Assembly: GCA_001829185.1 (NCBI GenBank) | Contig: MIAR01000023.1 | Span: forward strand, 1 to 64,000 | Length of the DNA: 64,000 bases | Direction: 5' to 3' | Source of the DNA: Spirochaetes bacterium GWB1_60_80 | GTDB taxonomy: Bacteria; Spirochaetota; Spirochaetia; Treponematales; UBA12059 | Shown here: positions 24,993 to 26,529 of the stretch, piece after piece | Numbering within the stretch: position 1 is the stretch's first letter | Layout of the letters: each line of letters begins with the position of its first letter | Notes under the pieces: generated by a model | Told to the model about the DNA's origin: nothing | The model's input: only the letters and a program-made list of their open reading frames with translations | Databases searched by the model: none | Program-made: the position numbers and the translations under genes

Positions 24993-25131
24993 TTTAGCAG
25001 GTTGTTGAAAAAGCCGGTTGCTTTCTCAACAACCTTAACAATTCCTCGCATAGCTTGCGCTATGCTGCGTAATTGTACCGGCTTTTGAAGTGTTGAAAAG
25101 CCGCATCCGCGTTTTTCAACACCCTGTTAGG
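24993..25131. repeat. 139-bp inverted repeat, left copy
   Basis: An exact reverse complement of 26178-26316. Its own ends are imperfect inverted repeats (TAGCAGGTTGTTGAAAAA against TAACAGGGTGTTGAAAAA, 16 of 18 identical). It holds three internal hairpins: AGGTTGTTGA...TCAACAACCT, GCATAG-CTTGCG-CTATGC and GTGTTGAAAA...TTTTCAACAC. It supplies the TAA stop (25127-25129) of the oxidoreductase gene. It looks like a MITE or REP-type element with TA at both ends. Confidence 0.95.
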
Positions 25132-26170
25132 CCGTGAACGGCAGCCTCCGGCCTTCCTGCGCGCTGCGCCGGGCGGTATCCAGGAGCTTCATGACCAGGC
25201 GAGCCGCTTCAGCCGGCACCGGGTTTGGTTCCCGTCCGGCCAGGGCGGCCAGTATGGCCCGGTAGAAACAGCCGTAATCGCCGGGTAGCGCTTGGATTGG
25301 CCGCCTGTCCAGGCGGTCTTGGCCGCCGGTCAGGGTCGGCCAACTGGCCTGATCAACCGTTTCCGGCCGACCGGCGAGCGGCCAGGTAGCGGACCGCAAG
25401 GCGTTTTCCTGGGGGTCGAGTCCGTGTGACCGGAAGCTGGCCTGGTCGCCTTGTACCAAGAAGCGCGGCCCCGGCTCGCGCACCAGGCTGCCGGCGCTCA
25501 GGAGCGCCCGCCGCTCGCCCCAGGCCAGGCTGAGTTGGAACCAGTCGTCGACCTGGGCATGAAGCCGTTGCCGGGCCAGGTCGGCCTGGACGCTGTCCGG
25601 CGGGCCGAATAACAGTAAAGCCTGGTCGACCAGGTGGGGCCCCAGGTCGTAGAGTAAGCCGCCGCCGGGCTGGTCCAGTTCGCGCCAGCGCGACCCCACC
25701 TGCGGCCGGAAGCGGTCAAAGCGCGATTCATACTGCTGGATGACTCCCAGGGCACCAGCGTCGATCAGCTGGCGCAGGGTCAGGAAATCGCCGTCCCAGC
25801 GCCGATTGTGGTAGACGGACAGGAGCAGGCCGCGCCGGGCCGCCAGTTCGATCAGGGCGTCGGCTTCCGTCAGGCTGACGGTGAAGGGTTTCTCGACCAC
25901 CACCGGCCGGCCGGCCTCCAGCGCCTGGCGGGCGTGGTCGTAGTGTAAGGCGTTTGGGGAGCAGACTATGACCAGGCTTACCGCCGGGTCGCGCAGCAGG
26001 GCCGGAACGTCGGCATACAGCTTGGCATCCGGCCAATCGGCCGCCGCCTTCTGGCGTTGCGAGCTGACGATAGCCGCCACCCGCAGCCCCGGCGTGCGGG
26101 CGATGACCGGCGCGTGGAAGGTCGAGCCGGAAAGGCCGTAGCCGATGATGCCCACGCCGGTGGTCTGCAT
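25127..26170 (-). CDS. Gfo/Idh/MocA-family oxidoreductase
   Basis: 347 residues, normal family length. The Rossmann start VGIIGYGLSGSTFHAPVI binds NAD(P); CSPNALHYDHARQALEAGRPVVVEKPFTV contains the hallmark EKP motif. DLGPHLVDQAL holds the catalytic-site His and Asp. Substrate not predictable, probably a sugar or polyol derivative. AGGAGG (26175-26180 on the plus strand as CCTCCT) lies before ATG 26170. The gene is exactly boxed by two perfect 139-bp inverted repeats, one giving its stop codon and the other adjoining its ribosome site. Confidence 0.93.
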   Translation of the reverse strand: MQTTGVGIIGYGLSGSTFHAPVIARTPGLRVAAIVSSQRQKAAADWPDAKLYADVPALLRDPAVSLVIVCSPNALHYDHARQALEAGRPVVVEKPFTVSLTEADALIELAARRGLLLSVYHNRRWDGDFLTLRQLIDAGALGVIQQYESRFDRFRPQVGSRWRELDQPGGGLLYDLGPHLVDQALLLFGPPDSVQADLARQRLHAQVDDWFQLSLAWGERRALLSAGSLVREPGPRFLVQGDQASFRSHGLDPQENALRSATWPLAGRPETVDQASWPTLTGGQDRLDRRPIQALPGDYGCFYRAILAALAGREPNPVPAEAARLVMKLLDTARRSAQEGRRLPFTA

Positions 26171-26177
26171 GCTGCCT

Positions 26178-26316
26178 CCTAACAGGGTGTTGAAAAACGC
26201 GGATGCGGCTTTTCAACACTTCAAAAGCCGGTACAATTACGCAGCATAGCGCAAGCTATGCGAGGAATTGTTAAGGTTGTTGAGAAAGCAACCGGCTTTT
26301 TCAACAACCTGCTAAA
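26178..26316. repeat. 139-bp inverted repeat, right copy
   Basis: The reverse complement of 24993-25131 without mismatch. It begins at the AGGAGG ribosome site of the oxidoreductase gene and ends at TAGC/GCTA before the glgP leader. Any promoter of the oxidoreductase gene must lie inside it or beyond it. Confidence 0.95.
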
Positions 26317-26529
26317 ACGCTTTGTTGGATCATGCCCGGTTGCCGTGCCAAGCGGCGAGACGCTGGCCGTAGCCGGCTGGCAGCGACCCCCCAGCCATAC
26401 TACAAGCCGCCGGATGACTTGTCAACAAAGACTGGCCGTACGCTGGCTTGGCGGCCTGCGCCATCATCTGGTAGGCGGCGGGGCGGTTTTTTAGGGTCGC
26501 GCTTGAGGCGTTTTTTTAGGTCGCACGTC
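26317..26529 (+). other. Leader region before glgP
   Basis: No gene is supported here. Two T-rich runs (around 26489-26494 and 26511-26518) follow GC-rich segments and might act as weak plus-strand terminators upstream of the glgP promoter, but the stems are poor. Confidence 0.35.

Follow-up and report, generated by a model that had tools for sequence, protein, structure and literature searches.

The window analysed here (64,000 nucleotides, positions 1 to 64,000 of contig MIAR01000023.1 from Spirochaetes bacterium GWB1_60_80) contains a pair of arms, 24993-25131 and 26178-26316, with only one gene between them, an oxidoreductase on the minus strand. The arms had been described in the initial annotation as exact reverse complements, and a repeat search confirmed this: they are 139 nt in length, 100% complementary and 1046 nt apart. 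Chance cannot account for a perfect match of 139 bp. Each arm is composed of a 129-bp element, classified below as a MITE, together with 4+4 bp of target duplication (TTAG) and 1+1 base that matches by coincidence (Table 1). Both element copies, read in their own orientation, are flanked by TTAG on either side, and each is a complete insertion in its own right.

Table 1. Features of the arms and the enclosed gene (window positions).
Feature	Position	Strand	Basis
TTAG, left target duplication of MITE copy 1	24994..24997	.	sequence reading, TSD table
MITE copy 1, 129 bp, ends CAGGTTGTTGAAAAA / CAGGGTGTTGAAAAA (reverse complement), without an ORF of its own	24998..25126	+	
Terminal hairpin 1 of MITE copy 1	24998..25036	+	single-strand fold, covariation
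Central hairpin of MITE copy 1	25038..25077	+	single-strand fold, covariation
Terminal hairpin 3 of MITE copy 1	25090..25126	+	single-strand fold, covariation
TTAG, right target duplication of MITE copy 1; minus-strand CTAA includes the oxidoreductase TAA stop	25127..25130	.	
Gfo/Idh/MocA-type oxidoreductase, 347 aa, intact	25127..26170	-	PF01408 and PF02894 matches, ORF
Shine-Dalgarno AGGAGG, 5' letters inside the duplicated target beside MITE copy 2	26175..26180	-	sequence reading
CTAA (TTAG on the minus strand), gene-side target duplication of MITE copy 2	26179..26182	.	
MITE copy 2, 129 bp, the same as copy 1 in every letter	26183..26311	-	
CTAA, outer target duplication of MITE copy 2	26312..26315	.	
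Sigma70-like promoter TTGACA-17-TAGTAT, lying past MITE copy 2 and facing the oxidoreductase	26397..26425	-	consensus match only

The minus-strand end of the oxidoreductase reads ...GGCC TAA. The stop codon predates the insertion because CTAA is the target. Upstream of the gene, the sequence reads TTAGGAGGCAGC ATG, in which TTAG (followed directly by GAGG) is the target. The left arm had been said to supply the stop codon and the right arm to abut the ribosome site; the arms do contain the former and reach the latter, but in both cases the letters belong to the target site and not to the element. Since the stop codon and the Shine-Dalgarno sequence lie within the duplicated targets, both were left intact by insertion. 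For the oxidoreductase, the MITE copies likely do no more than equip the untranslated regions of its transcript, 5' and 3', with hairpins.

The element is abundant in the source genome (3.6 Mb, 59 contigs). At least 42 similarity matches to the arm were found, and separate counts of the two element ends gave 169 and 162 matches, while reversed control patterns gave 0. The end counts give an estimate of about 160-170 near-identical copies, roughly one per 22 kb. About 100 places were taken with their flanks and aligned, and the common part is 129 bp. This yielded 94 full matches, of which two rows are copies with a palindromic centre counted in both directions, leaving about 92 distinct. In two MITE copies (L091 391-518 and L095 290-417) the centre is perfectly palindromic; the usual form has a mismatched arm. 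Identical tetranucleotides flank 89 of the 94 full matches (CTAG 33, TTAG 27, TTAA 15, CTAA 13, GTAG 1), and identical YTAR is present on both sides in 88. The element is short (<about 500 bp) and non-coding, as the listed ORFs overlapping the arms extend beyond it; it has terminal inverted repeats (27-nt arms, 81% complementary), a target-site duplication and many dispersed copies, the features that define a MITE. It is thus a recently amplified MITE with a 4-bp YTAR target duplication. The family is new, though its kind is already known; a literature search found no description of the 129-bp element.

For targets that are not palindromic, the flanks form a direct repeat in 40 cases and an inverted one in 1, and this lone inverted case contains an assembly gap. 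Duplication in direct orientation is the mark of a DDE transposase and speaks against REPIN-like elements. A doublet of REPIN type, mobilised by a Y1 transposase of the RAYT/IS200 kind that recognises a tetranucleotide and hairpin, would account for the hairpin beside a conserved tetranucleotide at each end and for the existence of single-hairpin derivatives. REPIN tetranucleotides would, however, be inverted (TTAG...CTAA) and not direct, and those observed here vary with the site and are therefore target duplications; we regard such a doublet as exceedingly improbable. The single-hairpin derivatives, ∼48 bp in length, occur at three unrelated places (L042 1642, L043 3660 and L053 4801), all broken off at the same inner point and flanked by YTAR on either side, as though the shortened version were itself capable of transposing. 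In another stretch of the source genome (L043 556-1528, C11:23555-24527), three MITE copies are spaced by exactly 422 bp and share their flanks, which is a tandem duplication; its middle copy has the mismatched flanks CTAG/TTAA. Another family of repeats, with ends GGAGTCTGTCGGRCTTTGGA beside CTA(G/A) and a length of about 300-450 bp where complete-looking, directly adjoins several of the 129-bp MITE copies (L084, L085, L098, L107, L024, L050 and L005) and seems to have the YTAR target in common with them.

The positions of 55 clean insertions were scored against genes called by a simple codon-usage method, for which the window genes were the training set, with 322 YTAR sites as controls. Insertions fell on stop codons in 13 of the 55 cases (24%) compared with 10 of the 322 control sites (3%; Fisher p 1.3e-6), and the excess persisted when intragenic sites were excluded (p 7e-4). 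Only 6 of the 55 lay inside genes, as against 178 of the 322 controls (p 3e-10). The insertions land on stop codons because YTAR contains TAA or TAG. Thus, in a G+C-rich genome, the MITE can reach gene ends with the proteins unharmed. Gaps of <1400 bp between neighbouring copies were found for 6 of the 66 listed, and about 10 would be expected genome-wide if 165 copies were placed at random. Close neighbours are therefore expected, and the boxing of a gene between two copies is most likely a coincidence.

These data bear on the proposal, made in the initial annotation, that recombination between the arms keeps them identical and inverts the cassette, so that the gene changes strand and its expression may phase-vary. 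Two perfect 129-bp copies in inverted orientation, separated by 1 kb, could in principle sustain homologous inversion, which would also part the gene from the promoter-like site outside the right arm, and the flanks are mismatched in 5 of the 94 full matches, as recombination between copies would leave them. Identity, however, is not special to the pair in the window: of the 94 full-match rows, 68 agree with the window copy in every letter and a further 11 have a single-base difference. As most full matches across the genome are identical, the perfect identity of the arms reflects a recent burst and not an exchange between them. Neighbouring pairs occur at chance frequency; promoter, Shine-Dalgarno sequence and stop codon are all in their native places in the present orientation; no gene of invertase or other recombinase type was recognised among the ORFs listed for 20-32 kb; and the assembly showed no second orientation. 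Many scattered copies, one of the two observations that the initial annotation had itself set against the cassette, are what the end counts revealed. The invertible cassette is thus very unlikely, and the candidate phase switch is replaced by an ordinary yet very active element, most examined copies of which are identical. RecA-type inversion between the two copies is possible as a rare event, as with any inverted repeat, with no dedicated switch. Both targets being TTAG, inversion of the 1.3-kb segment would leave the same duplications, which neither prove nor exclude one.

No MITE copy was found in a genome of the same genus (G001). Its glgP (86% identical) and neighbour A (60%) share a contig but are separated by 10.5 kb that contains other genes. 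The interval between glgP and A is variable, since G001 holds about 10 kb of other genes there. The oxidoreductase is absent from this interval, and its homologue in G001, 43% identical, lies elsewhere; the homologues in relatives are 40-45% identical and non-syntenic. A search of the relatives for an empty site at the window locus found no clean one. Elsewhere in the family and the order, other genera carry diverged versions of the element, 129-137 bp in length, with matching YTAR duplications. That the oxidoreductase is without a syntenic relative would fit a composite transposon, in which both copies carried the gene along as one 1.3-kb unit. The outermost flanks of the 1.3-kb block, however, read TTAG on the left and CTAA on the right and form no direct repeat, whereas a matching duplication of its own surrounds each of the two copies; the stop codon and the Shine-Dalgarno sequence lie exactly within these single-copy targets; and the interval in G001 varies without any MITE. 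We therefore consider a composite transposon highly improbable. The suggestion of two mobile-element copies forming a composite cassette thus held for the two inserted copies and found no support for the composite.

The arm folds into three hairpins with a z-score of -6.3 relative to shuffled sequences, and each end of the arm has a hairpin of its own. Covariation is seen in all three stems, with 96% of cells paired and 17 of the 38 pairs changed on both sides. Two-sided changes were counted in 63 cells compared with 19 in shuffles, and the signal collapsed when the partners were slid by one column; these counts overstate the number of events, since the copies are related and therefore non-independent, and since the same sequences served to derive the structure. 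A covariance model built on 17 copies from seven genomes (E up to 1e-4, roughly calibrated) detected it in 26 of the 294 genomes searched, and in 21 of the 83 sampled genera of the order, a few of these hits being weak. Compensatory stems and a steady length of 129-137 bp could indicate that selection keeps the three-hairpin form across many genera, the hairpins serving either as a DNA fold required in transposition or as RNA structures of 3'/5' untranslated regions, brought to gene ends by the stop-codon-containing target; we consider this unlikely. The conserved, co-varying form raises a testable question of hairpin function. A known structured RNA family was also considered and set aside: no Rfam match was obtained in the window region at E up to 1, and a relative gave only sub-threshold noise.

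Five contigs of the source genome end about 95 bp into a repeat starting YTAR-CAGG[TC]TGTTGAAAATT (or YTAR-CAGG[TC]TGTTGAAAATTACACACC). This repeat, seen over ∼95 bp, shares its first 14 bases with the MITE and likewise has YTAR alongside. Judged by this end, the most reasonable reading is a multicopy insertion sequence at which the assembly broke, and which could plausibly be the partner of the MITE. The 95-bp end was searched in 294 genomes and was found in the source genome only, apart from one weak 28-bp match. Other recurrent repeats, for example CATTGACTCATAATTAATCTAGCC, are present at further contig starts (L201, L202, L208, L210 and L213), and several further insertion sequences probably break the source assembly. 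No DDE_Tnp_1 domain was found in the source genome assembly and no DUF772 in ten genomes (the source genome and nine relatives); two scans of viral contigs for an autonomous partner found nothing. A pair of ends 1.54 kb apart in another genome (G014, L121), considered as an insertion sequence, proved to be a solo hairpin and a separate MITE flanking an aminopeptidase-like gene. One Nitrospira contig (L176 2-38) starts in a lone hairpin, CTAGCAGGCTGCTGAAAATAATTTTCAACAGCCTGCTAG, in which two ends adjoin each other directly, back to back. In a distant organism, Aromatoleum evansii (L182), a 1.39-kb element has similar ends, CAGGGTGTTGA and CAGGCTGTTGA (CAGG[GC]TGTTGA), and is flanked by CTAG on either side; it encodes an IS5/IS1182-like transposase, the frame of which is broken. 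IS5 insertions carry YTAR duplications, according to one report (PMC10359306). By the likeness of ends and target, the mover of the MITE is likely IS5-like.

Taken together, the arms are almost certainly two independent insertions, in opposite orientation, of one 129-bp non-autonomous transposable element, the MITE. We propose that a DDE transposase from a resident insertion sequence would recognise the CAGGKTGTTGAAAA ends, cut YTAR targets with a 4-bp stagger and insert copies, with filling-in yielding the direct repeats. As YTAR contains TAA or TAG in a G+C-rich genome, such insertions would often hit stop codons and gene borders harmlessly. At the window locus, one insertion would have struck the oxidoreductase exactly at its stop codon and the second a site just 5' of its Shine-Dalgarno sequence, each signal being regenerated.

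Among known systems, the MITEs of the IS5 group are likewise short and non-coding, with inverted ends, a 4-bp YTAR target (for IS5, PMC10359306) and many copies; the likeness is one of ends and target, and no IS5-type transposase was found in the source genome or nine relatives. Correia, ERIC and other high-copy bacterial MITEs, as portrayed in a review (PMC10969869), are alike in their length of 100-200 bp, in exceeding 100 copies, and in being mostly intergenic and palindromic with truncated derivatives. The window element differs from Correia and ERIC in its sequence, in the letter identity of most copies and in its YTAR target, which often coincides with stop codons. Correia uses TA, and ERIC has ends of its own. 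REP and REPIN sequences also have hairpin ends beside a tetranucleotide and occur in single and double forms; in these, the tetranucleotides are inverted parts of the element, whereas in the window element they are direct duplications of the target.
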